A stretch of DNA of 64,000 nucleotides. Origin: Burkholderiaceae bacterium (GTDB taxonomy: Bacteria > Pseudomonadota > Gammaproteobacteria > Burkholderiales > Burkholderiaceae_C). The notes beneath the pieces were generated by a model. It was not told where the DNA came from. It ran no database searches and saw only the letters and a list, made by a program, of their open reading frames with translations. The stretch lies in NCBI GenBank assembly GCA_019745555.1, contig JAIESX010000021.1:1-64000 (forward strand), in the 5' to 3' direction. This document shows, piece after piece, positions 11,764 to 31,704 of this stretch (positions within the stretch are counted from its first letter, which is position 1; each line of letters starts with the position of its first letter). The position numbers and the translations under genes are program-made.

Positions 11764-12852
11764 ATGAGCGAATTCAAGCTACCCCTGCATGCGCTCAAGG
11801 GACGCGGTGCGGCTAGCCGCACCGCGCATCGCTTTGAAAGGGAAGCGCGTGCAGCCTACGACGACGGCTGGGGCACCTGGGACGAAGCGCTGGCCGACGA
11901 GGCGCCGAAGTGGCAGACCGAGATCCGCTGGGAGGAAGCACGCAGCGCCCTGGTGCGCAACGACTCGCCCGACATCGCCTTCGATCTGTCGATCAATCCC
12001 TACCGCGGTTGCGAGCACGGCTGCAGCTACTGCTACGCGCGGCCCACGCACAGCTATCTGGGCCTGTCGCCGGGGCTGGACTTCGAGCGCGTGATCATCG
12101 CCAAGCGTGGCCTGGCCGATCGCCTGCGCGAGGAGCTGGCCGCGCCCGGCTACCGCCCCAGCCATCTGGCCATCGGCACCGTGACGGACTGCTAACAGCC
12201 CGTGGAGCGCGAGCTCCAACTCACGCGCGCGCTGATCGAAGTGCTGCGTGATGCGCGCCATCCCTTTGCGCTGGTCACCAAGTCCAGCGGGGTCGAGCGC
12301 GACCTCGACCTGATCGCCCCGATGGCGGCCGATCAGCTGGCTGCGGTCTACGTGACCATCACCACGCTCGACGGCGAACTCGCCCGGCAGCTGGAGCCGC
12401 GTGCGGCCTCACCGCAGCGGCGGCTGCGCACCATCCGCACCCTGGCCCAGGCCGGCGTGCCCGTGGGCGTGAGCGTGGCGCCGCAGATTCCCTTCATCAA
12501 CGAAGACATGGAGCAGGTGCTGGCCGCCGCCGCCGAGGCGGGGGCGCGCAGCGCCTTCTACACCGTGCTGCGCCTGCCCTGGGAGCTCAACGAGGTCTTC
12601 CAGCAGTGGCTGCAGCTGCATTACCCGCAGCGCGCGGCGCGCGTGATGGCGCGCATCCGCGAGATGCGCGGCGGCCAGGACTACGACAGTGACTGGGCCA
12701 CGCGCATGCGCGGCAGCGGCCTGTGGGCTGATCTGATCGCCCAGCGTTTCCACAAGGCCTGTACACGCCTAGGCCTGAACCGCGAGCGCATCGCGCTGGA
12801 CCGGACACAGTTCCGGCCGGGGCTGACGCAGGGACAAGCCTCGCTCTTCTGA
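11764..12852 (+). pseudogene. PA0069 family radical SAM protein, interrupted by an in-frame TAA
   Basis: A 362-codon gene of the PA0069/spore photoproduct lyase-like radical SAM family read in one continuous frame, except for a TAA at 12193-12195 between TVTDC and QPVERE. The family normally has a Tyr here (TDxYQP), so TAC to TAA, one base, explains the break. The N-terminal part carries the CX3CX2C cluster motif (C83, C87, C90 in CEHGCSYCYA); the rest of the barrel and the C-terminal FRPGLTQGQASLF tail follow the stop intact. A strong AAGGAGG sits before the ATG, and a LexA box overlaps the promoter. It could be a genuine nonsense mutation, a sequencing error or, less likely, readthrough. 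A truncated 143-residue product would lack most of the barrel. Confidence 0.85.
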
Positions 12853-13004
12853 ACAGAGTGGGCCGGGCGTGCATTATTTCTCGTTGGCAGGGTTATCCAT
12901 GCCGCGCCGCCGCCGCGCGCTGCCGCATCATCCACCATCAGCTCCGGCGCCCAAGACCACAGTCCACATAGGGAGGCTTGCTGCCGGTGTTAGGCTAGAC
13001 CCGC

Positions 13005-14009
13005 ATGATGAAGCTCGTACCCAAGCATCGATACGCCGGGGCTCTCGCGGCGACCCGGCGCCGTACCGTGCTGCACGCCGCAGCGGCACTGTCGCTGGGC
13101 GGTGCGCTGGGCGGCTGTGCCCCTCCGGAGCCGCCCTTACGTCTGGGCAGCATCGTCTTCCCGGGCTACGAGTTCGTCTTTCTCGCACGCGAGAAAGGGT
13201 GGCTGGACGAGCGCCAGGTGCGCCTGATCGAGCTGCTGTCCAACACCGATGCCTTGCGGGCGTTGGCATCCGGCCAGCTGGAGGCCGCGATGCTGACGCT
13301 CGACGAAATGCTGTCAGCACAGGCCGACGGCCTGGATCTGTGTGCCGTGTTGATTCTGGATGTCTCGGCGGGCGCGGACGCCGTGCTCGCCCACCCACCC
13401 CTGACCTTGAAGGAGCTGGCGGGCCGACGGATCGCGGTGGAGGACAGCGCGGGCGGCGCCATCATGCTCAGTGCCCTTCTGGCTGCAGCCGGTTTGCGGA
13501 TCGAGCAGGTACGCAAGGAATCCTTCACCCTGGACCGCAGCATCGAGTTCTACCGTGAGCGCCGGGTCGACTTCATCATCTCGGTCGAACCCTGGGTCAG
13601 CCAGCTGGAGCGACTCGGTGCCCGGCGCATTTTCGACAGCGCCCGCATCCCGGGACGCATCGTCGATGTGCTTGCCGTACGCCGCAGCGTCCTGGACAGC
13701 CATGCCGACGCCGTGCGTCAGCTGGTTGCAGCCCACTTCCGTGCCCTGGCTCATTGGCGGTCCCAGCCCGAAGAGGCGCAGAGGCTTCTCGCTGCACGCC
13801 TGCGTCTCGGTCCGTCCGAGGTGTCGACGGCCTACAAGGGCCTGGAGATGCTGGATGTGGCGGACAACCGTGCGTGGATGCAGCGAGACGGTCAGCTCGC
13901 AAGGGTGCTGCAGGAATTGCAACCCGCCATGCAACAAGACGCCCTGTTGCAGCGTGCCTTCGGCCTTGCCGAAGTGGCGGATTCCTCCTTTTTGCCTCCG
14001 GGAAGGTGA
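13005..14009 (+). CDS. NMT1/THI5-like ABC substrate-binding lipoprotein
   Basis: A 334-residue periplasmic binding protein. The N-terminus has RRR followed by a hydrophobic run and an LGGC lipobox (C38), so it is probably a lipoprotein. The mature part reads like the NMT1/THI5 (SsuA/TauA-like) family: [22 protein letters not shown], then [21 protein letters not shown] and [14 protein letters not shown]. No permease or ATPase is adjacent; instead the stop is four bases before a hybrid sensor kinase. I infer that it presents a ligand to that kinase rather than feeding an importer. Ligand unknown. Confidence 0.85.
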
Positions 14010-17000: not shown

Positions 17001-17823
17001 GGCCACGCGCCAGATCCGCAGCCTGCCCGGCAAGGAAGCACTGCCCATCGTGGCGATGACGGCGAACGCGTCGGACACCGACCGGCAGGCCTGTCTGGCG
17101 GCCGGGATGAACGATCACGTGGCCAAGCCCATCGAGCCCGAGCTGCTGTTTCGCAGCCTGCAACGCTGGTTGCCGCAGCGTGCAGCCGTGGCCGGGCTGG
17201 CCCGTCCGGCCCAAGCGGTGCCCCAGAGCGCGGAACTGCCAAGCATCAAGGGCCTGGACACTGCCCAGGGCCTGCGCCGCGTGCTTGGACGCAGTGATCG
17301 TTACCTCACCATGCTGCAACGCTTCGTCGAGGGACAGCGCGACGTGACGGACCGACTGGCCGCGTCGCTGGCCGGGGCTGATCTTGGCACAGCGCAACGT
17401 CTGGCCCACACGCTCAAAACAGTGGCGGGCAATATAGGCGCCAACGCCTTGCAGCAGGCCGCGGCCGAGCTGGAAGAGGCTTGTCATCCGCAGGCCAGTG
17501 CCGCGCAACGTGCGCAGGCGCAGCAGCGCTGTGCCAGCCTGCTGCCGCCGCTGCTCACGGCGCTGGATCAGCACCTGGAGCGGCAGAATGCACCGCCCAT
17601 CATGACCCCGGAGGTCCCGCTGGACCCGCAGGCTGTCGCCGACGTCTGCCAGCGACTCGAGCGCCTGCTGGCCGACGACGACATGGAAGCCACCGAGGTC
17701 TATACGCAGCACGAGGCCATGGTGCGTGCCGGTCTGGGCGCGCGCCATGAGGCCTTCGCGCAGGCACTGCGCCAGTTCGATTTCGAAACGGCGCTGCAGG
17801 TCCTGCGCCTGCCATCCACCTGA
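14014..17823 (+). CDS. hybrid sensor histidine kinase with PAS, two REC and Hpt domains
   Basis: A 1269-residue membrane kinase. I start at GTG 14014, preceded by GGAAGGTGAG, because the frame further upstream only shadows the binding-protein gene. Order: TM1 about 10-30, periplasmic region, TM2 about 185-205, HAMP to about 260, PAS about 265-385, second PAS about 395-520, HisKA with the phospho-acceptor H553 in [11 protein letters not shown], HATPase to about 780, REC1 with D843 ([11 protein letters not shown]), REC2 with D986 ([11 protein letters not shown]), and Hpt with H1132 in [10 protein letters not shown]. All phosphorelay residues are present. It sits between the binding lipoprotein and an HD-GYP regulator on one transcript. 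The stimulus is presumably the ligand of the upstream protein. Confidence 0.92.
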
Positions 17824-17831
17824 CGGGAGAC

Positions 17832-19016
17832 ATGATGAACCACGACATTCCCGCGCTGCCCGAGCGTGCCACCGTGCTGGTCGTCGACGACACCCCGGAC
17901 AACCTGGCGTTGATGCAGTCGCTGCTGCGTGACACCTACAAGGTCAAGGCCGCCAACAACGGCGAGCGCGCGCTCAGGATCGTGTCCTCGGAGCAGCCGC
18001 CCGACCTGATCCTGCTGGACATCATGATGCCGGGCATCGACGGCTACGAAGTCTGTCGCCGGCTCAAGGCCGATGCGGCCACGCGCGACATTCCGGTCAT
18101 CTTCCTGACGGCCAAGGCCGAGGTGGAGGACGAGCAGCTCGGCTTCGAGCTCGGCGCTGTCGATTACATCACCAAGCCAATCAGCCCGCCCATCGTGCAG
18201 GCGCGCGTTCGGACACATCTGGCGCTCAAGGCTACATCCGATTTCCTGCGTGACAAGAACGCCTTCCTCGAGCAGGAGGTGGACAAGCGTACGCGCGAGG
18301 TCATGGCCATCCAGGACGTGACCATCCTGGCCATGGCCTCGCTGGCCGAGACGCGCGACAACGAGACTGGCAACCACATCCGCCGTACCCAGCACTATGT
18401 GCAGGCGCTGGCGCGCCGGCTGTCCAACCACCCGCGCTTTGCCGCCTACCTGACCGTGCCGACCATCAAGCTGTTGTTCAAGTCGGCGCCGCTGCACGAC
18501 ATCGGCAAGGTGGGCATCCCGGACCGCATCCTGCTCAAGCCGGGCAAGCTGACGTCGGAGGAGTTCGAGATCATGAAGACGCATACCACGCTGGGGCGCG
18601 ATGCCATCGCCCACGCGGAGCAGCAGCTGGGTGTCGAGGTCGGCTTCCTGACGATTGCCAAAGAGATCGCCTACTCCCACCAGGAGAAGTGGGACGGCTC
18701 GGGCTACCCCGAGGGCCTGCAGGGTGACGCGATTCCCATCTCGGCGCGCCTGATGGCCGTGGCCGATGTGTACGACGCGCTGATCAGCCGCCGGGTCTAC
18801 AAGGACCCGATGCCGCACGAGGAGGCCATGGACATCATTCGACAGACGGCAGGCCGGCATTTCGACCCGGATGTCGTCGAGGCCTTCTTGGACATCCACG
18901 AGACCTTCCGTGCCATCGCCCTGGCTTACGGCGACAGCGACGCCGATCTGGCCCAGAAGGTGGCGTACCAGAAGATGGCGGCGGGCGCCCCCGTGGCGCC
19001 GCCGCCTGCCCCCTGA
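17832..19016 (+). CDS. response regulator with HD-GYP c-di-GMP phosphodiesterase domain
   Basis: A 394-residue RpfG-type output protein. The receiver domain spans about residues 14-130 with acceptor D63 (LLDIMMPGIDG) and the conserved K in ITKP. A short coiled linker leads to an HD-GYP domain: H182 in NETGNHIRR, HD at 222-223 (LHDIGKVGIPD), H251 in KTHTTLG, and GYP at 291-293. All metal and GYP residues are intact, so it should hydrolyse c-di-GMP. It starts nine bases after the kinase stop, with GGGAG just upstream; ATG 17835 is an alternative start. It is the obvious target of the upstream hybrid kinase via its Hpt domain. Confidence 0.92.
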   Translation: MMNHDIPALPERATVLVVDDTPDNLALMQSLLRDTYKVKAANNGERALRIVSSEQPPDLILLDIMMPGIDGYEVCRRLKADAATRDIPVIFLTAKAEVEDEQLGFELGAVDYITKPISPPIVQARVRTHLALKATSDFLRDKNAFLEQEVDKRTREVMAIQDVTILAMASLAETRDNETGNHIRRTQHYVQALARRLSNHPRFAAYLTVPTIKLLFKSAPLHDIGKVGIPDRILLKPGKLTSEEFEIMKTHTTLGRDAIAHAEQQLGVEVGFLTIAKEIAYSHQEKWDGSGYPEGLQGDAIPISARLMAVADVYDALISRRVYKDPMPHEEAMDIIRQTAGRHFDPDVVEAFLDIHETFRAIALAYGDSDADLAQKVAYQKMAAGAPVAPPPAP

Positions 19017-19026
19017 CTGCCGCGCG

Positions 19027-19488
19027 TTAGCGATAGGCCTGGTAGACGCGCGCGCTACCGTCGCGCTGCACCAGCAGCACCTCGTAGGGATCCTTGTGGC
19101 CGCCATACTCCGGCCCGTCCATGCCGGGCGAGCCCACGGGCATGCCCGGCACGGCCAGGCCGAGGGCCTTGGGCTTTTCCTTGAGCAGGCGATGGATCTC
19201 ACGCGCCGGCACATGGCCCTCGAGCACGTAGCCACCCACGAGACCGGTGTGGCAGGAGCCGTACCTGTCCGCCAGACCCAGGCGCCGGCGCTGTTCGTCC
19301 TTGCGCGCCTGCGGGAGATCGTGGAACTTCACCGCGAAGCCTTCGGACTCCAGGTGGCGGATCCAGTCCTTGCAGCAGCCGCAGGTCGGCGTCTTCCAGA
19401 CCTCGATCACGGGACGTGTGTTCGCCGTGATGGACAGAGGGGCGAGGGCCAGCGCTGCGGCGTTGGCCAAAAGTGTACGTCGGTGCAT
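19027..19488 (-). CDS. DUF411 metal-binding protein, exported
   Basis: A 153-residue DUF411 protein, a family found in copper and other metal resistance loci. It begins with a signal peptide (RR followed by a hydrophobic stretch to about residue 22). The metal-binding signature is CGCC around residues 36-39 (TPTCGCCKDW), with a second Cys-His pair at 79-80 (GSCHTG). The fold is probably thioredoxin-like. Its neighbour 16 bases upstream encodes a cupredoxin, so periplasmic copper handling is likely. Exact ligand chemistry is not known to me. Confidence 0.88.
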   Translation of the reverse strand: MHRRTLLANAAALALAPLSITANTRPVIEVWKTPTCGCCKDWIRHLESEGFAVKFHDLPQARKDEQRRRLGLADRYGSCHTGLVGGYVLEGHVPAREIHRLLKEKPKALGLAVPGMPVGSPGMDGPEYGGHKDPYEVLLVQRDGSARVYQAYR

Positions 19489-20768: not shown

Positions 20769-22382
20769 ATGCAAGTTTCTCCCTCCTCCCGCTCCGGTGA
20801 GTTGTCCGCTCAGGCCCTGCTGGGTGATCGGATCATGCTGGCCGCAATCGGTCTGAGTGCCATTGCGGCGATCATTCTTGGCTTCAATTTCGTCGAATCG
20901 GGGCTGGCCTGGGGTGCGTCTCTCGCCCTGGTGCTGATGGCCCTGGGGGTCTATGCGAGCAGCAAGGGCACGCTTCGGTCCAGCCTGGCCCTGGCCTTCA
21001 TCCAGTCCTGCTTTGTCGCGCTGCACATCGATCTAGCCCGCGGCATGACCGAGTTCCACTTCGGCGTCTTCGTCACGCTGGCCCTGCTGCTGGTCTATCA
21101 GGACTGGCGTCCCATCGTGCTGTCCGCAGTCACCTTTGCCGTACACCACGTCGTCTTCGACCGCCTGCAGGCCGCGGGTTTCGGGCTCTACTGCCTGAGC
21201 CAGCCGGACTTTGCTGTCGTTGTTCTGCACGCCGTCTATGTGGTGATCCAGACCGCGCTGGAGGTGGTACTGGCCGTGGGCATGGGCCGTATGGCCCGCC
21301 AGGGTGCCGAGCTCAGCCACCTGGTTGCGGCTGTGGACCGGCCGGACGGCATTGCGCTCGACGGTCTGCAGGGCATCACCGTGCAGTCGCACGCCGCGCA
21401 GACCTTGCTGTCCACCTTGCAGCGCATGGAGGGGGCCGTGGCCCAGGTGCGTGCCTCAGCGGCCAGCATGGATACGGCCTGCGCCGAGATCGCGCAGGGT
21501 AACCAGGACCTGTCGGCCCGTACCGAAAGCCAAGCCAGCGCCTTGCAGGAAACGGCGGCCTCTATGGAGCAGCTGAACTCCACCGTGAAACAGAACGCCG
21601 ACAACGCGCGCCAGGCCAACCAGCTGGCGCAGAGCGCCTCGACGGTGGCTGTGCAGGGCGGCGAGGTGGTGGCCCAGGTTGTGAACACCATGAAGGGCAT
21701 CAACGATTCGAGCCGCAAGATCGCCGACATCATCAGCGTGATCGACGGCATCGCCTTCCAGACCAATATCCTGGCGCTCAACGCCGCCGTCGAGGCCGCG
21801 CGTGCGGGTGAACAGGGTCGCGGCTTTGCCGTGGTGGCCGGCGAGGTGCGCACCCTGGCCAGCCGCTCGGCCGAGGCGGCCAAGGAGATCAAGGCACTGA
21901 TCAGCGACAGCGTGGGCCGCGTCGAGCAGGGCACGGCCCTGGTGGACCAAGCTGGGCACACTATGGAAGAGGTGGTGGCCAGCATCAAGCGCGTGACCGA
22001 CATCATGGGCGAGATCAGCGCAGCCAGCAGCGAGCAGCACAAGGGTGTGGCCCAGGTGGGCGAAGCCGTAACCCAGATCGACCAGGCCACGCAGCAGAAC
22101 GCCGCACTGGTGGAAGAGATGGCCGCCGCGGCCAGCAGCCTCAAGGGCCAGGCTGACGAACTCGTGCAGGCAGTCAGTGTGTTCAAACTGGCCGCGAGGG
22201 CCGGATCGCTCCCTATAGCGCCAGCCGTCGCTCGCCCACCTGCCGCTGCCTCCAAGCCAGCAGCTCCGCGTCCGACGAAGAAGCCCGTCGCACCGCCCTC
22301 GCTAGCCCGGCCTGTCGCGCCAGCGTCGTCCCGCAGCGTCTCTACCGTTCGAGAGTCTAACGACGACTGGGAGAGTTTCTAG
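20769..22382 (+). CDS. methyl-accepting chemotaxis protein with multi-pass membrane sensor
   Basis: A 537-residue chemoreceptor. Instead of a periplasmic ligand domain, the first ~190 residues form about five or six membrane helices with short loops (including [12 protein letters not shown]), so it may sense a membrane or redox-related cue. The signalling domain follows from about 235, with the conserved hairpin tip [20 protein letters not shown] and flanking methylation helices. A Pro/Ala-rich linker ends in NDDWESF, similar to the CheR/CheB-tethering pentapeptide NWETF. The stop overlaps the convergent GGDEF-EAL gene by four bases. Confidence 0.92.
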
Positions 22383-25174
22383 GTCGGAGCCCTCAACTGA
22401 GGGGCGCGCGGTTCCTGAGCCAGCAGGCGCTCGATCTCCGGTGCGGGCACCGGCTGTGAATAGAAGTAGCCTTGCGCCGCATCGCAGCCGAAGGCCCGCA
22501 GCTGGTCGCGTATCTGCCCGGTTTCCACGCCTTCGGCCAGCGTGCGCAGGTTCAGGCTGCGGGCCATCTGGATGATGGCGCGCACGATGGCCGCATCGTC
22601 CGGGTCGCTCGCGAGGTCACGCACAAAGCCCTGGTCGATCTTGAGCAGGTCGATGTCGAGCTGCTTCAGATAGGCCAGGCTGGAGTAGCCGGTCCCGAAG
22701 TCGTCGATGGCCAGTTTCACGCCGACCTCCTTGAGCGCACGCACGCTGGAGAGCACGCTTTCCATGTTCTGGATCAGGATGGATTCGGTGAGCTCGAGCT
22801 CCAGCAGGTGCGGCGGCAGGCCCGAGGCCTCGAGCGCCCGTCGCACCGACTGCTCGACCTGGCCGCGCTTGAACTGGATGGCCGATAGGTTCACCGCCAG
22901 TGTCAGCGGCGGCAGACCCGCGCGCCGCCAGCGCATGGCCTGCTGGCAGGCCTGCTGCAGCACCCAGTCGCCCATGGCGACGATCAGCCCGCTTTCTTCG
23001 GCCACGCCGATGAAGCGTGCCGGCGCCACCAGGCCCAGTTCCGGGTGCTGCCAGCGGATCAGCGCCTCGACACCGGTCAGCTGTCCGCTGGCCAGGTCGT
23101 ACTGGGGCTGGTAGTGCAGCAGGAACTCGTCACGCTCCAGCGCCCGGCGCAGTCCGTTGCGCATCAGCAGATGTTCGCCGGCTTCGGCGTCCATCGTCGG
23201 ATCGAAGAAGTGGTAGGCATTGCGCCCCGCTTCCTTGGAGCGGTACATGGCCATGTCGGCCTTCTTGCGCAGGGTTTCGAAGTCGCGGCCGTCCTCGGGG
23301 CCGATGGCCACACCGATCGAGGCCGAGACCGACAGCTCCTGCGTGCCGATGCGCACCGGTTCCTGCAGCCGGTCCATGATCTTGAGCACCACGGCCGCGA
23401 CGACCTCGGTGTCGGACAGTTCACCCAGCATCAGCAGGAACTCGTCGCCGCCCTGGCGGCTGATGGTGTCGCTGTCACGCACGCTTTCGCGCAGCCGGCG
23501 GGCCACCTCGCGCAGCAGCTCGTCGCCGGCGGCGTGGCCCAGCGTGTCGTTGATGGTCTTGAAGTTGTCCAGGTCCAGGTAGACCAGGGCGATGCGGGTC
23601 TGGTGGCGGTCGGCCTGGGCCATGGCCTGCACGAAGCGGTCCTGCACCAGCAGGCGGTTGGGCAGACCCGTCAGCGCGTCGTGGTAGGCCAGGTACTCGA
23701 TGCGCTGCTCCGCGGCCTTGCGGTCCGTGATGTCCGAGCCCACGCCGCGGTAGCCGCGGAACACGCCCTGCTCGTCGAAGATGGGCGTGCCGCTGATGCT
23801 CAGGGTGCGTACCATGCCCTGGCTGTCACGCACCTGGTAGATGAAGTCGTGGAAGGGTTCGTGCCGGTTCAGCAGCGCGCGGTGGGCTTCCCAGCCCTCT
23901 TCGTCGGGCGAGACCACGGGCTGGTCCCAGCGCGTGCGTCCGATGTGCGGCACCATGTCCGCCCCATAGATGCCGCGCGAGACCTGGGTGAAGCGGAAGG
24001 CTTCGTCCTGTTCCCAGAACCAGTCGGTCGAGAGCTCGGCCAGGCTGCGAAAGCGTGCCTCGCTCTCGCGCAGCGTCTGCTGCTGGCGGTCGAGCCGGCC
24101 GACCATGTCGTTGAAGGCCTGCACCAGGGTGCCGATCTCGTCGTCGCGCTGCAGCGCCAGCTGGCGCTGTGGGCCCGGCCGGTCGTGCAGCGACCGCACA
24201 TGTCGGGTCAAGGTCTCCAGCGGTGTCAGCGCGCGGCGCATGATCAGACCGATGAGTACCACCACCACCAGCGTGCCCGCGGCGATGCCCGTCAGCAGGA
24301 GGTTGCGCGCCTCGCGCAGCGGCTCCTCGGCCTCGGCCACGGGCAGGTTCACGCTGAGCAGCCAGGGCACTGTGCCCAGGTGCTTGAAGCTGCTCATCAC
24401 CTCCTCGCCGCGCGACGTTACCACCGTGCCGCTGCCTTCGAAGCCGGCCACGGCGCGGTCGACCAGCGGATTGAGTCCGGGCTGCACGATAGGCTTGAGG
24501 ATGCGTTGCGGGTTGCGGTTGGTGATGAAGATGCGCTCGCGCGTGAAGAGAGAGATGTAGCCGGTCCGCCCGAGCTTGACGTGGTTGAGGTCGGAGAGAA
24601 AGTTGCGCCCTTCGAGTTCGATGCTGCCGTGCAGCCGGCCCACCCCATTGCCCCGGCCGTCGAACAGCGGAATGCTGATGGTGATGGCCGGCCGGCCCTG
24701 GGCGCGCTCCGAGGCGAAGGGGCGTGAGATGTGGGGTTGCCGGGTCGCGGAGACCGAGCGATAGGCGTCCAGACCGCTCAGATCGCGCCCGCGCCGCCCG
24801 GGCAGGTAGGGCGACTCGGCGATCAGACGCCCGTCCTCCGAGAGCAGGGCCAGCCCGTCGGTGAAGATGGCACGCAGCGCGGCCTGGCGGTCCAGGAAGT
24901 CCTGGGCCGCACGCGCATCGCGCAGCGCCGCGGCCGGGACGTCACGCGCCGTGAGCTGCAGCAGTTCCTGGCTCTGCTCCAGCTTGTCGTCCAGCGCCTT
25001 GGCCAGGGTGCTGGCCAGTAGAAACTGGTCCTGGTAGAGGTTCTGGCGGAAGTTCTGGTCGAAGTGCCGCAGGGTGAGCCAGGTCAGCAGACCGGCAAAA
25101 ACGATGAAGAGCAGGGCAACGGCCAGGACCACCCGGGTCTTGAGGCTGGTTGCGCGTAACCAGGGCAAACGCAT
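22379..25174 (-). CDS. membrane sensor with Cache, HAMP, PAS, GGDEF and EAL domains
   Basis: A 931-residue c-di-GMP enzyme. TM1 about 16-37, a periplasmic double-Cache-like region to about 285, TM2 about 290-312, HAMP, a PAS domain about 370-490, GGDEF motif intact at 575-579 and EAL at 703-705 (GVEALIRWQ), with EAL-domain catalytic segments such as [10 protein letters not shown] and [12 protein letters not shown]. Both catalytic domains look active, so the net output is uncertain. The ATG lies 28 bases after the soxA stop on the same strand, so it could be the last gene of the sox transcript; an AT-rich TATATATA lies in that gap and may be a separate promoter. Confidence 0.92.
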
Positions 25175-25202: not shown

Positions 25203-25970
25203 TTACGGACGCACGCCGGGAGATTCGACGGGCAGCCCGCGCGCCCGCTCGGCCAGGTAGAGCTCCAGCGCCACGAGCTCGGGCGCGCCCAGCGGCCAGG
25301 GCTGGGCCCGCACGCCGCTCAGGCAGCTGCGCAGGCGGCGCTGCAGCGAGCCCAGGCCCTGCCATTCCAGGCGGTACTGCGGGTAGCTGTTCGGATGGGC
25401 CTGCGGAATCAGCGTGCCGCCCAGGCGCTGGCCCCAGCGCTGGTCGTGGCACTGGGCGCAGGAGAGGTTGAGCTGGCCCAGGCGCTGCACATAGAGCGTG
25501 TGCCCCTGTTCCCGCAGCGCTTGCAGGCGCGCGTCTTCGGGCGGGCTCAGAGGCAGTCCACGTGACTGCAGCGCCACCAGGGCTTCCAGGGCCAACAGCT
25601 CCTCGCTCTCGAGCGGCCAGGGGGTGGCCTGTTGGTGCTGCGTGCGGCAGCGCTGGATGCGCTGCGCCAGGTTGAGCGCGCCGCCGCTGGGCGCATCGAA
25701 GGTTGGGTAGCGTGCCGCCACGCCACGCAGGCGCTGCACCTCGCCATGGCAACTCGCACAGGCGCGTTGCTGCGCGCCGGCCGGCCGCTGCCAGAGCTGC
25801 GCGCCCTGCTGGACCCAGAGCATGGCCGGGTTGCGCGTGTCGTCGCGCTGCATGGCCTGCAAGTCCGGGTGCATGGCCTCAACATCGGAGCGGCGCTGCT
25901 CGGGCGCCAGTTGCGCCTGCAGTGTGCCGGCCAGCAGCAGCGCCAGCCAGACGATACGGTGCGCCCTCAT
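25203..25970 (-). CDS. soxA: diheme cytochrome SoxA
   Basis: A 255-residue c-type cytochrome, partner of SoxX in the periplasmic SoxXA complex, which in the canonical pathway oxidatively links sulfur substrates to the SoxY cysteine. Signal peptide to about residue 19. Heme sites: CASCH at 71-75 and CAQCH at 171-175, the latter followed by RWGQRLGGTLIPQ. The YPQYRLEWQ block and C216 (LRSCLSG) match the SoxA region carrying the cysteine that ligates the active-site heme. It is the sixth gene of the operon and overlaps soxZ by four bases. No soxB lies nearby. Confidence 0.9.
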   Translation of the reverse strand: MRAHRIVWLALLLAGTLQAQLAPEQRRSDVEAMHPDLQAMQRDDTRNPAMLWVQQGAQLWQRPAGAQQRACASCHGEVQRLRGVAARYPTFDAPSGGALNLAQRIQRCRTQHQQATPWPLESEELLALEALVALQSRGLPLSPPEDARLQALREQGHTLYVQRLGQLNLSCAQCHDQRWGQRLGGTLIPQAHPNSYPQYRLEWQGLGSLQRRLRSCLSGVRAQPWPLGAPELVALELYLAERARGLPVESPGVRP

Positions 25971-26290
25971 GAGACGGTGATCGCCACGCTCTCGCTGTGA
26001 CGAAAGCCCTGTTCGCCCTCCCAGCTCAGGCGCAGCGTACCGCTGGCCACGGCCACGGTGTGGAAGGCGATCAGCGGGTTGGCCGATATCGCCGGCGAGA
26101 ACTCGGCCACGAAGACGAGCTCCTCGTTGTAGTGGCAGCTGAAGCGCGTGAGGATGTTGCGCGGCAGGCGCTGGCCATCGGCGCCGGGGCGGAAGCCCGA
26201 CTCCATGGGGTGGCCGATGATGGCGCTGATCTCGATCACCTCGCCCCGGCGCGCCGTCTTCGGCACCTTGATGAGGGTGCGCGCGCTCAC
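25967..26290 (-). CDS. soxZ: sulfur carrier complex subunit SoxZ
   Basis: A 107-residue SoxZ, the partner that holds SoxY in the SoxYZ carrier. Typical segments are IKVPKTARRGEVIEISAIIGHPMESG near the N-terminus, a central FSCHYNEELVF and a C-terminal LRLSWEGEQGF. It has no signal peptide, as usual for SoxZ, which is co-exported with SoxY. The gene overlaps soxY at its start and soxA at its end, four bases each. Confidence 0.92.
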   Translation of the reverse strand: MSARTLIKVPKTARRGEVIEISAIIGHPMESGFRPGADGQRLPRNILTRFSCHYNEELVFVAEFSPAISANPLIAFHTVAVASGTLRLSWEGEQGFRHSESVAITVS

Positions 26291-26730
26291 TGCAATTCCT
26301 CCAGGCAGGCGGCGAGCGCGACGATGACTTCCACCGTCTGCTGCCAGCAGCTGCCGTCGCTCAAGCGCGCCACCGCCGTGAGCTTTTGCGTGGTGGCCAG
26401 ACGGATGCGCGTACTCACCTGCGCCTTGCCTGCGCGCGGGCCCAGCTGGCAGCGCAGCACATCGGCCTGCGGATTGCGTTCGTTGAAGACGGCGATGGCC
26501 ACCACATGGTCGGACGCCGTCATGGGGCCGTCCACCCGCACGGCCAGCGGAACCGTGTTGCCGTTGTCCACCAGGGTGGCGATGTCGATCTGCACACGCC
26601 CGCTCTGCACGGGCGTGCCGCCGGCCCAGGCACGCACAGCGTCCTGCAGCTGGTTGTTGGCCTGTGCCGGGCGCAGCAGCAGCCAGCCGGTGAGGCCGGT
26701 GGCGGTCCGCAGCAACAGACGGCGTTCCAT
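26287..26730 (-). CDS. soxY: SoxY-type sulfur carrier, variant without the GGCGG arm
   Basis: A 147-residue SoxY-like protein. I start at MERRLLLRTATGL, which gives an RR-containing export signal; the frame continues upstream over soxX and is a shadow. The body matches the SoxY domain (VPLAVRVDGPM, VVAIAVFNERNPQ, RIRLATTQKL). In canonical SoxY the chain ends in GGCGG, whose cysteine carries the sulfur substrate. Here the end is VIVALAACLEELQ, with C142 six residues from the terminus and two further cysteines at 94 and 128. The conjugating chemistry may therefore differ or use C142. It is followed by soxZ with a four-base overlap, so the C-terminus is set by that junction and does not look truncated by a frameshift. 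Confidence 0.82.
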   Translation of the reverse strand: MERRLLLRTATGLTGWLLLRPAQANNQLQDAVRAWAGGTPVQSGRVQIDIATLVDNGNTVPLAVRVDGPMTASDHVVAIAVFNERNPQADVLRCQLGPRAGKAQVSTRIRLATTQKLTAVARLSDGSCWQQTVEVIVALAACLEELQ

Positions 26731-26735
26731 GCGTT

Positions 26736-27158
26736 TCAGTCTCTCAGCGTCATCAGCCAAGCGATCACGTCCTCGATCTGCTGGGCGTCGAGGATGGGGC
26801 GGTCCTGCCAGCGTGCACCCACGCGCGTGAAGCCTGCGCTGCGGTAGTAGGCCGGCATGATGCTGTCCGGGTTGAAGTGTTGCGGATTGACGAGACGCAG
26901 GCGCAGTTGCGCGGCATTCCAGCGTGTACCGGCGCCGGCGAGATCCGGCGCGAGATTGCCCTGAAAGCGCTCCTCGGGAACCGGGCCGCTGTGGCACAGC
27001 AGGCACAGGCCCTGGCTGCGGCTGGCCGCAATGGCGCGACCGCGTGCCGCGTCACCCGTCTTGCCTTCCAGCGCCGCGGGGATGCCGTCGCCCACCACCG
27101 TCACGGCCCCGCCCGCCAGGGGCAGGGCCAGCACGGCGGCGGCCAACAGCAGCTTCAT
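26736..27158 (-). CDS. soxX: monoheme cytochrome SoxX
   Basis: A 140-residue c-type cytochrome. Signal peptide to about residue 18, heme site CLLCH at 52-56, and a likely axial M101 in SIMPAYY. PEERFQGNLAPDLAGAG and LRLRLVNPQHFNPDS are SoxX-typical. It should accept electrons from SoxA and pass them to the respiratory chain. The start ATG at 27158 overlaps the stop of the molybdopterin subunit gene by four bases; the long frame upstream of it is a shadow of that gene. The soxY start is five bases downstream. Confidence 0.9.
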   Translation of the reverse strand: MKLLLAAAVLALPLAGGAVTVVGDGIPAALEGKTGDAARGRAIAASRSQGLCLLCHSGPVPEERFQGNLAPDLAGAGTRWNAAQLRLRLVNPQHFNPDSIMPAYYRSAGFTRVGARWQDRPILDAQQIEDVIAWLMTLRD

Positions 27159-29338
27159 GCGCGTCGCAGGTCCTGGCTCTTGAGCGGCAGCTCGCGGATG
27201 CGCTTGCCCGTGGCGGCGAAGATGGCGTTGAGCACGGCCGGCGCAGCCACGGCGATGGTCGGTTCGCCCACGCCGCCCCAGAAGCCGCCCGAAGGCATGA
27301 CGATGGTTTCCACCGGCGGCATGTCGGCCAGGCGCATGACGGGGTAGGTGTCGAAGTTCTTCTGCTCTACGGCCCCGTCCTTGACCGTGATCTCGCCGAA
27401 CAGTGCGGCCGACAGGCCGTAGACGAAGGAGCCCTCGACCTGGGCCTCGATCTGCTGCGGGTTCACGGCGTGGCCGCAGTCGGTCGCGGCGACGATGCGG
27501 TGGATCTTGAGCTTGCCCTCGGCACTCACCGAGACCTCGGCGCAGGCGGCCACATAGCTGCCGAAGCCCATGGTCTGCGCCAGGCCCCGGTACACGCCCG
27601 CGGGCGCAGGGCTGCCCCAGCCCACGCGCGCGGCCACGGCATCGAGCACGGCCAGGTGCTTGGGATGGTTGACCATGAGCTTGCGCCGCAGCGCCAGCGG
27701 GTCCTGGCCTGTGGTGTGCGCGATCTCGTCGAGGAAGCACTCGAGGTAGATGGCATTCTGGTTCAGGTTCACGCCGCGCCAGAAGCCCGCCGGCACAGGC
27801 GGGTTGCGCATGGCGTGTTCGATCAGCAGGTTGGGGAAGCTGTAGCCGATGGAGGCCTCGGGCCCGCTGGCGTTGAGGCCCTGGTAGACCACCATGTCCT
27901 TGCCATCACGCATGGCCTGTGGCGCCACCGTGGCCAGGATGGACTGGCCCGAGATGCGCATGTGCAGGCCGGTGATGTTGCCCTGCTCGTCCAGGCCGGC
28001 GCTGAGCTTGGCGGCGGTGATGGGGTGGAAGAAGCAGTGCTGCATGTCTTCCTCGCGCGACCAGATCAGCTTGATTGGCGTGCCCGGCATGGACTTGGCA
28101 ATCGTGACCGCCTGGGTGATGTAGTCGCTGCGTCCGCGCCGGCCGAAGCCGCCGCCGAGCAGCTGCTTGTAGACCTCGCACTGCGTGGCCGGCAGGCCCG
28201 CGGCCTCGGCCGTGGCGGCCAGCGCGGCCTCGCCGTTCTGTGTGCCCACCCAGACCTCGCAGCGCTGCGAGGTCCAGCGCGCGGTGGCGTTCATGGGCTC
28301 CATGCAGGCGTGGTTCTGGTAGGGGTAGCCGTAGATGGCCTCGATGCGGCGTGGCGCGGCCGTGATGGCGGCCACCGCATCGCCGTTGCTGTTACCCACC
28401 GAGGTCGCAGGTGTCGACAGGTCCAGGCCGCCGCGCACCATGGCGTGGATATCGGCCTGCGAGACGGCAGCGTTGGGGCCGAGGTCCCATTCGATCTGCA
28501 GTGCGTCGAGCGCGGTTTTGGCCGTCCACCAGGTGGTGGCCACCACGGCTACGGCGCTGGGGCCGACCTGCACCACCTTCTTCACGCCCAGGCGCCGCAT
28601 GATGGGCGCGGCGTTGAAACTCTTGACCGTGCCGCCGAAGACCGGGCAGTCCTTGATGGCCGCGTTGAGCATGCCCGGCAGCTGCAGGTCCATGCCGTAG
28701 TCCTGCTGGCCCGTGGTCTTGCGGAAGGTGTCCAGGCGCAGCATGCGCTGGCCTGCCACCTTCCAGTTCTTCGGGTCCTTGAGCGTGATGCTGGCTGGAT
28801 CCGGCGGCGTGAGCTTGCCGGCGGCATTGGCCACGCGGCCGTAAAGTGTCTTGCGACCGGTCGGGGTGTGCGTGATCACGCCACGTGTCACGCTGCACTC
28901 GGCCACGGGCACGCCCCAGCCCTCGGCCGCGGCCTGCAGCAGCATCATGCGGGCCATGGCGCCGCCCTTGCGCACATAGTCGTGCGATTCACGGATGCCG
29001 CGGCTGCCGCCGGTGGCGAAATTGCCCCAGACGCGCTGGCGCTTGAGGTTCTGGCCCGGCGTCGGGTATTCGGTGGTGACGCGGCGCCAGTTGCATTCCA
29101 GCTCCTCGGCCACGAGCTGGGCCAGGCCGGTCAGCGTGCCCTGGCCCATCTCCGAGCGGGCGATGCGGATCACCACCGTGTCGTCGGGCTTCACGACCAC
29201 CCAGGCGTTGATCTCGGGCGGCAGGTCCGCGGCCTGGGCCAGCGGCACATGAAAGCCCACCATCAGGCCGCCGGCCGCCGCACCCGTGGTTGCCAGGAAG
29301 TTGCGACGTGTGATCCCGTCCTGTTGCACTGTGTTCAT
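27155..29338 (-). CDS. Tat-exported xanthine dehydrogenase family molybdopterin-binding subunit (IorB-like)
   Basis: A 727-residue large subunit of the isoquinoline 1-oxidoreductase/aldehyde oxidoreductase type. The N-terminus carries a twin-arginine signal (RRNFL at 11-15, then a hydrophobic stretch to AQA), so the enzyme works in the periplasm. Mo-hydroxylase signatures include [31 protein letters not shown] and, near the C-terminus, GVGEP with E692, the position of the catalytic glutamate in this family. Electrons should pass to the 2Fe-2S subunit encoded just upstream (four-base overlap). Its stop overlaps soxX. Substrate unknown; being fused transcriptionally to soxXYZA, it may oxidise a sulfur-containing or sulfur-carrier-bound compound (inference). 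Confidence 0.9.
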
Positions 29339-29841
29339 GACAGGCCCTCCTCGGTCTGCAGGCCGTCAGCAGCGGAGACGCGACGCCTTGGCATGCCCTG
29401 CGCCGCCACCTTGATCGCCGCGCGCACGCGGTTGTAGGTGCCGCAGCGGCAGATGTTGGTGATGGAGGCGTCGATGTCCGCGTCCGTGGGATTGGGCTTG
29501 TCCTTGAGCAGGGCGCTGACGGCCATGATCATGCCGCTCTGGCAGAAGCCGCACTGCGGCACGTCGAGCATCTGCCAGGCGCGCTGCACGACATGCGTGC
29601 CGTTGCGTGACAGCCCTTCGATGGTCACGACCTGCTGCGTTTCCTTGAGCGCACGCAGCGGCATCACACAACTGCGCACGGCGGCACCGTCGATGTGCAC
29701 CGTGCAGGCGCCGCACTGGGCGACGCCGCAGCCGTATTTGGTGCCGGTGAGCCCGAGCTGCTCACGCAGCACCCACAGCAGCGGGGTATCGGGGGCGGCG
29801 TTGAACTCCTGTTCCTCACCGTTGACGTTGAGTTTGGCCAT
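29335..29841 (-). CDS. (2Fe-2S)-binding subunit of molybdenum hydroxylase (IorA-like)
   Basis: A 168-residue small subunit. The plant-ferredoxin-type cluster uses C38, C43, C46 and C58 ([14 protein letters not shown]), and the second, alpha-helical 2Fe-2S domain uses C97, C100, C131 and C133 ([12 protein letters not shown]). No signal peptide; such subunits are exported together with the Tat-signal partner. I start at MAKLNVNG because GGAGG sits eight bases upstream; an ATG at 29856 overlaps that site. First gene of the six-gene operon ending with soxA. Confidence 0.92.
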
Positions 29842-30658: not shown

Positions 30659-31621
30659 TCAATCCAGCCGTGCGCCGGATTTCTGGACGGCCGCAGCCCA
30701 GCGCGGCATCTCGGCGGCGAGGAACCTGGCGAACTCGTCCGCACCGAGGAAGGCCGGGTCGGCGCCCTGCGTGATCATGCGCTCGCGCAGATCGGGCTGG
30801 CTCAGTACCCGACGGAAGGCGTCGCTGAGTTTCGCCACCACGTCCCTGGGCGTGCCGGCGGGCGCGAGAAAGCCGTAGAAGCCCACGACTTCGAAGCCGG
30901 CGATGCCGCTCTCGATCACCGTGGGAATCTCGGGCAGGGCGGGGTTGCGCGCGCGGCTGGTCACGGCCAGCGCGCGCACCTTGCCCTGCTTGTGATAGGC
31001 CGCGGCCTGCGGAATCGACTCGGCCATGAACTGCACCTGGCCAGCCATGAGGTCGGTGAAGGCCGGTGCGCTGCCGCGGTAGGGGATATGGACCATGAAC
31101 AGGCCGGTGCTGCTCTTGAACATCTCGGGCACCAGGTGGCTGATGCCGCCGTTGCCGGCCGAGCCGTAGTTGACCTGCCCCGGGCGCGAACGCGTGTAGT
31201 CCATGAACTCCTTGAGCGTGTTCACGGGCAGCTTGGGGTTGACCAGCAGGGCCAGGGGTTGCATGGCCGTGCGCGCGATCGGCACGAAGTCCTTGAGCGT
31301 CGCATAGGGCAGCTTGCTGTAGAGCGCCGGGTTGATGACCATCACCCCCGTATTGGCCAGCATGATGGTGTGCCCGTCGGGCGCGGCCTTCATCACCTCC
31401 TGAGCGCCCACGGTGCCCCCGGCACCCGACTTGTAGTCGATGAGCACGGGCTGGCCGAGAACGGCCTGCAGCCGGTCGGCCAGCAGGCGCGCATGCTGGT
31501 CCAGCGGGCCGCCGGCAGGGAAGCCGATGACGATGCGCACCGGCTTGGAGGGGAAGGTCTGGGCGGTGGCTCCCAGGGCCAGCAGCAGGCTGGCGAGCAG
31601 AAAGGCGAGGGTCTTGCGCAT
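30659..31621 (-). CDS. tripartite tricarboxylate transporter substrate-binding protein (Bug family)
   Basis: A 320-residue periplasmic receptor of the Bug/TctC family. Signal peptide MRKTLAFLLASLLLALGATAQ, then FPSKPVRIVIGFPAGGPLDQHAR and VDYKSGAGGTVG-like motifs (IDYKSGAGGTVGAQEV), and later VNYGSAGNGGISH. I start at MRKTLAF; the ten-residue lead from 31648 is not signal-like. No tctA/tctB is adjacent, as is common for the expanded Bug families in Burkholderiales. Ligand is probably a small carboxylate but cannot be specified. Confidence 0.9.
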   Translation of the reverse strand: MRKTLAFLLASLLLALGATAQTFPSKPVRIVIGFPAGGPLDQHARLLADRLQAVLGQPVLIDYKSGAGGTVGAQEVMKAAPDGHTIMLANTGVMVINPALYSKLPYATLKDFVPIARTAMQPLALLVNPKLPVNTLKEFMDYTRSRPGQVNYGSAGNGGISHLVPEMFKSSTGLFMVHIPYRGSAPAFTDLMAGQVQFMAESIPQAAAYHKQGKVRALAVTSRARNPALPEIPTVIESGIAGFEVVGFYGFLAPAGTPRDVVAKLSDAFRRVLSQPDLRERMITQGADPAFLGADEFARFLAAEMPRWAAAVQKSGARLD

Positions 31622-31704
31622 GATGAAGGCGGCAGTGGACGAGCCCAAATTGTGCGTCCGGTTCCGGGGCCGGACCGGCCGGGTAAACGCGGAGTCTGCG
31701 CGCG

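Follow-up and report, generated by a model that had tools for sequence, protein, structure and literature searches.

An operon joining molybdenum hydroxylase genes to soxXYZA in a Burkholderiaceae bacterium: conservation and possible function

In the window analysed here, the whole stretch of 64,000 nucleotides (nt) at positions 1 to 64,000 of contig JAIESX010000021.1 from a Burkholderiaceae bacterium (assembly GCA_019745555.1), six genes of the minus strand, from 29841 to 25203, encode in this order a 2Fe-2S subunit (FeS), the large subunit of a molybdenum (Mo) hydroxylase, SoxX, a variant SoxY, SoxZ and SoxA. Comparison of gene order with other genomes gives good support to the view that these six genes form one conserved module. 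With respect to its function, the operon may encode a dedicated periplasmic module oxidising a compound in which carbon and sulfur chemistry are linked, a reading that is put forward tentatively and short of calling it probable. A previous reading of this DNA from its letters only (hereafter the sequence-only reading) had described the gene order together with four overlaps of 4 bases and one gap of 5 bases, all of which are confirmed by the open reading frames (ORFs). The overlaps lie at FeS/Mo (29335-29338), Mo/SoxX (27155-27158), SoxY/SoxZ (26287-26290) and SoxZ/SoxA (25967-25970). The features are as follows, lengths being given in amino acids (aa):

29335-29841, minus strand: IorA-like 2Fe-2S subunit, 168 aa, with Fer2 and Fer2_2 domains and no signal peptide seen by eye
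27155-29338, minus strand: xanthine-oxidase-family Mo subunit, 727 aa, with a twin-arginine translocation (Tat) signal and MoCoBD_1 and MoCoBD_2 domains
26736-27158, minus strand: SoxX, monohaem c-type cytochrome, 140 aa (TIGR04485, 77.7 bits, cut-off 61)
26731-26735, minus strand: soxX/soxY gap of 5 nt, the sole junction without overlap
26287-26730, minus strand: SoxY variant, 147 aa, with an AACLEELQ arm (PF13501; TIGR04487)
25967-26290, minus strand: SoxZ, 107 aa, GTG start (PF08770; Pfam SoxZ, 85 bits)
25203-25970, minus strand: SoxA, 255 aa, with two CxxCH haem motifs and the active-site Cys216 (TIGR04484, 217 bits, cut-off 110)

The Tat motif of the Mo subunit scores above the cut-off of TIGR01409 and below that of Pfam TAT_signal, and the window SoxZ narrowly misses the 'SoxZ_true' model (73.5 bits against a cut-off of 76). 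Neither soxB nor soxCD lies within the operon, as the sequence-only reading had stated and as both the ORFs and the family models bear out. Apart from SoxX and SoxA, no cytochrome c gene adjoins it in a reading of the ORFs by eye, made without a family-model scan of the neighbours.

The window SoxY ends in the arm AACLEELQ, not GGCGG. It passes the NCBIfam model TIGR04487, 'SoxY-related AACIE arm protein' (196.6 bits, cut-off 172), fails the true-SoxY model TIGR04488, which has the GGCGG arm (79.9 bits, cut-off 125), and does not reach TIGR04557, the model of the quinoprotein-associated SoxYZ-like carrier (48.2 and 32.9 bits against 140). This protein family has already been named by NCBI, under a model title that states neither function nor partner, and records of the Prokaryotic Genome Annotation Pipeline (PGAP) use the same name in the same cluster. 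What the present analysis adds is the link of the AACIE-arm SoxY to a Mo hydroxylase, as indicated by gene order.

Conservation of the gene order and of active-site residues

Two sets of loci were compiled. For the first one, chosen by SoxA, the window SoxA was searched in 199 relatives (source genome counted), a match of at least 150 bits being taken as positive. Such a match occurs in 47 genomes, the source counted, from which G004 and G173 were left out because their close SoxA is present as fragments only (48 and 51 residues), and the other 46 loci were examined. All six genes, in one direction and in the order FeS-Mo-SoxX-SoxY-SoxZ-SoxA, are found in 37 of these 46. In three loci (L075, L077, L078) the Mo pair and the Sox block are adjacent and opposite in direction, and five are short or cut at contig ends (L033, L057, L065, L071, L072; L071 is without SoxX in its remaining 1.7 kb). 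The second set was picked by the Mo protein alone, independently of SoxA, and comprises the best 80 of at least 578 confirmed candidates. At least one Sox gene stands beside the Mo gene in 69 of these 80 loci, from alpha- and betaproteobacteria: 48 have the full order, three more are complete, differing by a truncated 5' end or an additional Mo copy (L109, L147, L168), three are divergent, nine are lean (Mo with SoxYZ) and six are partial at the end of the available DNA (L105, L107, L132, L143, L145, L146). No Sox genes are seen in the other 11, six of which end soon after the Mo gene (L119, L127, L129, L173, L176, L177). The full set is found, among others, in Bradyrhizobium, Bosea, Microvirga, Skermanella, Methylobacterium, Ferrovibrio, Limnohabitans, Rhodoferax, Polaromonas and Pseudoduganella. 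The gene order is found widely, which rules out the possibility, named in the sequence-only reading, that it occurs in no other genome. Both counts, 37/46 and 69/80, support one conserved module.

The lean form of the cluster, with Mo and SoxYZ and without SoxXA in the available DNA, is represented by 16 loci, including L117, whose sequence stops right after soxZ. In the seven relatives' genomes with a lean cluster, a SoxA-family match is present elsewhere in all seven, so that loading of the carrier in trans would be possible. In one such lean-type genome, which has no SoxB, a separate SoxX-SoxY-SoxZ-SoxA block (L193, G135 C9:95000-114000) adjoins, by eye, methenyl-tetrahydromethanopterin cyclohydrolase-like and related genes of formaldehyde oxidation. 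Another type of SoxYZ, with the arm ASGCGM, is seen in L095, L096 and L098; a cytochrome and a pair of genes resembling flavocytochrome c sulfide dehydrogenase lie nearby, and there are no matches to Mo or SoxXA.

Further peculiarities of single loci can be mentioned. Tandem Mo genes occur in or beside the cluster, two in L109 (5269-10139) and three in L143 (30-7815). The soxX of L035 and the Mo genes of L066 and L212 look interrupted or frameshifted, by assembly error or decay, and the comparison rows of L035 SoxX and L066 Mo are unreliable. L127, L133 and L155, titled Bordetella parapertussis or Chitinophaga pinensis, are contigs of metagenome-assembled genomes whose titles are probably misnomers.

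The residues on which catalysis and electron transfer would depend are kept almost without exception. In SoxA, Cys216 and the second haem motif are each present in 100 of 100 aligned sequences, and the first haem motif is present in 99; in a PDB alignment, Cys216 of the window protein falls on a Cys of Rhodovulum SoxA that we take to be the persulfide Cys. In SoxX, the Cys, Cys and His of CxxCH and the Met are each present in 103/103. The eight cluster Cys of the 2Fe-2S subunit are all kept in 126/126 aligned homologues, and the catalytic Glu of the Mo subunit (GVGEP) in 128/128. The arm Cys of SoxY is found in 99/99 full loci, preceded by Ala in 96 of them, by Ser in two and by Gly in one, never by GG. 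The lean loci have arms of the form Cys-Gly in nine (L088-L094, L117, L181), SACVD in six and AACLE in one.

Relation to canonical sulfur oxidation

The source assembly (2.99 Mb, 57 contigs, 88.6% complete) has a second sox cluster on contig C43 (L079, C43:12463-19040), with SoxB at 17349-19040 (860 bits), SoxC at 12463-13713 (600 bits), a GGCGG-arm SoxY, SoxZ and SoxA; SoxB and SoxC were searched there by family. The canonical SoxA of this cluster has one CxxCH, versus two in the window SoxA, with 25-30% identity between them. The sequence-only reading had asked whether a complete sox cluster elsewhere might explain the window genes. A canonical-type cluster is indeed present, which makes the window operon a paralogous set, but it does not account for the window genes, since it has its own SoxY, SoxZ and SoxA. 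A short CsoR-like regulator frame lies near the C43 cluster by eye.

Among the 199 genomes, SoxB is above its family cut-off in 108, namely in 36 of the 47 with the operon and, by subtraction, in 72 of the 152 others (Fisher odds ratio 3.6, P = 0.0004, kinship ignored). The 11 operon genomes with no SoxB above the cut-off are G006, G015, G019, G031, G036, G054, G090, G093, G124, G131 and G178, eight of which are at least 96% complete. SoxC is above its cut-off in none of these 11; weaker sulfite-oxidase-family matches, to 200 bits, occur in some. The module thus leans towards sulfur oxidisers yet, as far as gene content tells, needs neither SoxB nor SoxCD. Its presence in genomes with no SoxB or SoxC above the cut-offs indicates that it is more than a detached piece of the thiosulfate pathway.

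In comparison with canonical Sox, the operon shares the SoxX, SoxZ and SoxA families, the C-terminal carrier Cys of SoxY and the active-site Cys of SoxA, but it has an AACLEELQ arm, no SoxB or SoxCD in the operon, and a Mo partner with other Mo domains. In Bradyrhizobium diazoefficiens, which has soxY1 and soxY2, thiosulfate oxidation needs only soxY1, the gene of the canonical locus, according to PMC5748708, which relies on earlier work for this. Three SoxY matches are found in a genome labelled B. diazoefficiens SZCCT0449: the first belongs to the cluster described here (arm AACTEEMN, a 100% match to locus L154 over 14.8 kb), and the others are a GGCGG-arm SoxY in a soxXYZA locus and a frame of 286 aa that is probably a SoxYZ fusion. 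To judge from this genome, soxY2 of B. diazoefficiens is probably the AACIE-arm gene. Genome surveys that take soxX, soxY, soxZ or soxA as a sign of thiosulfate oxidation could assign genes of this kind to the wrong pathway. For the AACIE-arm SoxY, the association with a single clade of periplasmic Mo hydroxylase, whether or not SoxB or SoxC is present in the genome, supplies a partner that can be tested.

A search of PubMed Central, covering the available text of papers under CC0, CC BY and CC BY-SA licences, found no description of the Mo hydroxylase-Sox cluster among the papers listed. The nearest published idea that was met is that of SoxYZ beside dehydrogenases dependent on pyrroloquinoline quinone (PQQ): SoxYZ fusions lie next to PQQ alcohol and methanol dehydrogenases, roles outside sulfur metabolism have been argued for them and a protective one has been proposed, according to the available part of that paper (PMC11237559), whose main text, as far as available, contains neither 'AACIE' nor 'xanthine'. 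The TIGR04557 carrier (compare SoxYZ-S2/S4 in PMC11237559) resembles the present case in being a Sox-type carrier beside a periplasmic dehydrogenase of carbon compounds. It differs in that SoxYZ is fused there and accompanies a PQQ enzyme, whereas here SoxY and SoxZ are separate and come with SoxXA and a Mo enzyme.

The molybdenum enzyme, its relatives and accompanying genes

The closest solved relative of the Mo protein is 8gy3_C, the large subunit of an aldehyde dehydrogenase (402 bits by profile, the sole chain beyond 1e-60); the window protein alone gives 277 bits with this chain and 98 with the next best. The aldehyde or (thio)organic substrate suggested in the sequence-only reading would fit such a relationship. 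The 8gy3 enzyme is presumably one of three subunits that uses a cytochrome c subunit. The FeS and Mo architecture is common to the window enzyme, to 8gy3 and to IorAB-type hydroxylases, but the operon has no separate gene for a cytochrome c subunit of the 8gy3 type, and soxXYZA stands in that place.

In trees, the Mo proteins of the clusters group together in a single clade (support 99 and 100), from which the few distant Mo hydroxylases included are separate; the trees were quick builds with long-branch warnings, few outgroup rows and labels assigned by proximity to tblastn matches. Distant Mo hydroxylases from some of the same genomes fall outside the clade (L045, the second copy of L067, L081), the second L067 copy adjoining an operon on the other strand. 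L081 belongs to the source genome (C34, L081:1109-4900) and is a distant second Mo hydroxylase pair adjoining an XdhC gene, with no Sox match in 12 kb. An XdhC-type maturase is found in 24 of the 24 genomes tested, the source genome counted.

Plasmids carry relatives as well. With the threshold applied, 99 plasmid records hold a relative of the Mo protein, in 35 cases with 60-80% identity, and 12 regions were examined. A cytochrome c gene and no Sox are seen in four regions from Sinorhizobium, two from Rhizobium, one from Methylosinus, where the cytochrome is multihaem, and one from Agrobacterium, whose copy forms a long branch in the tree. The full set with a flavoprotein is found in Methylobacterium, Roseomonas and Neorhizobium, and one Paraburkholderia region is outgroup. 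The sister of the nested Sinorhizobium/Rhizobium group in the tree (support 100) is a locus that has the complete Sox set together with fccB.

The flavoprotein gene just mentioned is a further companion of the cluster. In Bradyrhizobium and others, the gene between Mo and soxX encodes the flavoprotein of flavocytochrome c sulfide dehydrogenase (in L126, FCSD_central 160 bits and FCSD-flav_bind 72 bits). It is present in 35 of the 80 Mo-chosen loci, and it may also stand after soxA (Pseudoduganella L172, Roseomonas L208) or opposite (Bosea L150, L152). Since it keeps company with the cluster at several positions, it is probably tied to it functionally, while not being part of the window operon. 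Clustering of flanking ORFs, which were called mechanically with shadow frames included, gave nothing else widely common across genera among the top 45 and 60 clusters beyond the core and fccB; several clusters are confined to Bradyrhizobium or to Limnohabitans-like genomes.

Another companion, of narrower distribution, is a gene for SBP56, the family that holds methanethiol oxidase, found downstream of soxA in four closely related Bradyrhizobium loci (L135, L138, L165, L178). An amidohydrolase gene lies between soxA and SBP56 in the four, the two genes being about 2.4 and 1 kb from soxA in L165. One of these SBP56 proteins reaches 98 bits with the NCBIfam methanethiol oxidase model, against a cut-off of 650. 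By the Pfam cut-off, SBP56 occurs in 10/199 genomes: three full-operon genomes out of 47 (G030, G070, G141), three lean-cluster genomes out of seven (G135, G142, G158) and four genomes that have neither; none is above it in the source genome. A methanethiol route, in which the Mo enzyme would serve for formaldehyde and Sox for sulfide, was rejected as a general answer because SBP56 is too rare among operon genomes, the lean cluster excepted.

Possible functions and neighbouring genes

In the preferred reading of a module for linked carbon and sulfur chemistry, SoxXA would join a sulfur-linked substrate to the single C-terminal Cys of SoxY, in an arm of the form AAC[I/L/V/T][E/D], much as thiosulfate is joined by canonical SoxXA. 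The FeS-Mo hydroxylase, exported by Tat and of the aldehyde dehydrogenase type, would oxidise the carbon part with water, either alone or on SoxYZ, and electrons would pass from the 2Fe-2S clusters to a cytochrome c, in the simplest case SoxX/SoxA. Sulfide or sulfane sulfur would, in many alphaproteobacteria, be dealt with by flavocytochrome c sulfide dehydrogenase from the same cluster. We infer the substrate, its attachment to SoxY by SoxXA, the route of the electrons and the oxidation on the carrier from several lines of argument. The invariant Cys of SoxA and of SoxY argues that the loading reaction is in use. The constant Mo partner and the retention of SoxYZ where SoxXA has left the cluster argue for a substrate common to the carrier and the Mo enzyme, and the 16 lean loci point to the carrier-Mo pair as a core. 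The sulfide dehydrogenase gene speaks for reduced sulfur being taken in or released, in alphaproteobacteria at least, and the aldehyde-dehydrogenase-like Mo subunit for oxidation of carbon. Together, these features suggest an organosulfur compound or a thiol adduct as substrate. The two roles that had been proposed earlier for SoxXA are both compatible with the comparisons, that of ligase with the conserved active-site Cys and that of electron acceptor with the lineages having a cytochrome c in the place of Sox.

Several observations weigh against such a module. The Sox block of L059, the last of the 46 SoxA-chosen loci, has no Mo pair within 5 kb upstream, and five of the 80 Mo-chosen loci have the Mo pair and room for Sox genes with none present (L106, L131, L155, L157, L171). 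An fccB-like gene is found in neither the window nor the 46 loci of the SoxA-chosen relatives. The Mo pairs of Rhizobium and Sinorhizobium plasmids (about 61-65% identical) are nested in the Sox-linked clade with a cytochrome c beside them and no Sox, and among plasmid records with SoxA only 4/14 also hold a Mo gene of the clade, Sox-free copies being commoner on plasmids. We read the nested copies as cases in which Sox may have been replaced by cytochrome c, which would favour, at least in part, an electron-acceptor role for SoxXA. The Sox-free Mo lineages also show that enzymes of this clade can do without a neighbouring Sox carrier, which weakens the case for an obligate carrier-bound reaction.

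A further proposal, which we regard as doubtful, is that SoxYZ carries the substrate of a carbon oxidation in the periplasm, in a role like that of glutathione or acyl carrier protein in the cytoplasm, which would make this a Sox-derived pathway with an organic substrate. SoxXA, or a spontaneous thiol addition, would put a thiol- or aldehyde-derived group on the Cys of the AACIE arm; the Mo hydroxylase would oxidise the carbon adjoining the sulfur while the group is bound, and the sulfide dehydrogenase would clear the sulfur. If it were true that SoxYZ carries organic adducts, the Sox carrier would be a general periplasmic swinging-arm system, which would be relevant also to SoxYZ proteins encoded next to PQQ alcohol dehydrogenases.

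Four other explanations have to be weighed. The first one, rather unlikely in our estimation, is that both moieties are handled in parallel: an organosulfur compound would be cleaved elsewhere, the Mo enzyme would take the aldehyde, SoxXYZA with flavocytochrome c would take the sulfide or thiol, nothing would be oxidised on the carrier, and the genes would share one operon because of the common parent substrate. The kinship of the Mo protein with aldehyde dehydrogenase speaks for it, as do the sulfide dehydrogenase gene in 35/80 loci and SBP56, both downstream in the four Bradyrhizobium loci and in 3/7 lean-cluster genomes. However, no organosulfur-cleaving gene travels generally with the operon, SBP56 being present in 3/47 and other cleaving enzymes not having been searched for, and the four Bradyrhizobium loci are near relatives whose tested protein is under the methanethiol oxidase cut-off.

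According to the second explanation, to which we give a small probability, only the electron acceptor has been exchanged, so that the Mo enzyme would act on a free substrate, SoxXA would replace the usual cytochrome c and SoxYZ would be a structural or regulatory partner of SoxXA. Such an exchange is what the Sox-free members of the clade suggest, with their cytochrome c beside the Mo pair (Sinorhizobium, Rhizobium, Agrobacterium, and the multihaem one of Methylosinus). On the other hand, 16 loci keep the haemless SoxYZ without SoxXA in the cluster, and electron transfer alone would need neither the invariant arm Cys of SoxY nor the active-site Cys of SoxA.

Still less probable is a guarding or repairing role, in which SoxXYZA, together with flavocytochrome c, would shield the Mo=S centre of an ordinary periplasmic hydroxylase from reactive sulfur or supply sulfur to it. 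A similar role has been speculated on for SoxYZ-S4 and methanol dehydrogenase, and the parallel in print is the protection proposed for SoxYZ fusions that adjoin PQQ-dependent alcohol and methanol dehydrogenases (PMC11237559). The normal route to Mo=S is nevertheless present, given XdhC in 24/24 genomes, and in the loci examined the Sox block is associated with a single Mo clade, the distant Mo hydroxylases (L045, the second copy of L067, L081) falling outside, with few outgroup rows included. As the sole role of the Sox module, substitution for XdhC in the sulfuration of the Mo centre was rejected on the same XdhC count.

The last explanation, very improbable, takes the Mo enzyme as a stand-in for SoxCD that oxidises the sulfane sulfur on SoxY in an inorganic route without SoxB. 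In its favour are the absence of any other Mo enzyme from the operon, the complete set of SoxX, SoxY, SoxZ and SoxA, and the FccB gene of many loci. But SoxC belongs to the sulfite oxidase family, which the MoCoBD domains (aldehyde/xanthine type) do not resemble, and no SoxB lies in the cluster. The need for soxY1 only in the thiosulfate use of B. diazoefficiens (PMC5748708, in the part available) also counts against it, if soxY2 is this locus, as we infer.

Finally, the genes around the window operon were read by eye. The region downstream of soxA encodes a GGDEF/EAL-type protein (window 22379-25174) and, from the opposite strand, a methyl-accepting chemotaxis protein (window 20769-22382). 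The upstream neighbour (window 30659-31648) resembles a solute receptor of the TctC/Bug type, and TctC/Bug-like frames are seen near the cluster in 16 loci, the window counted.

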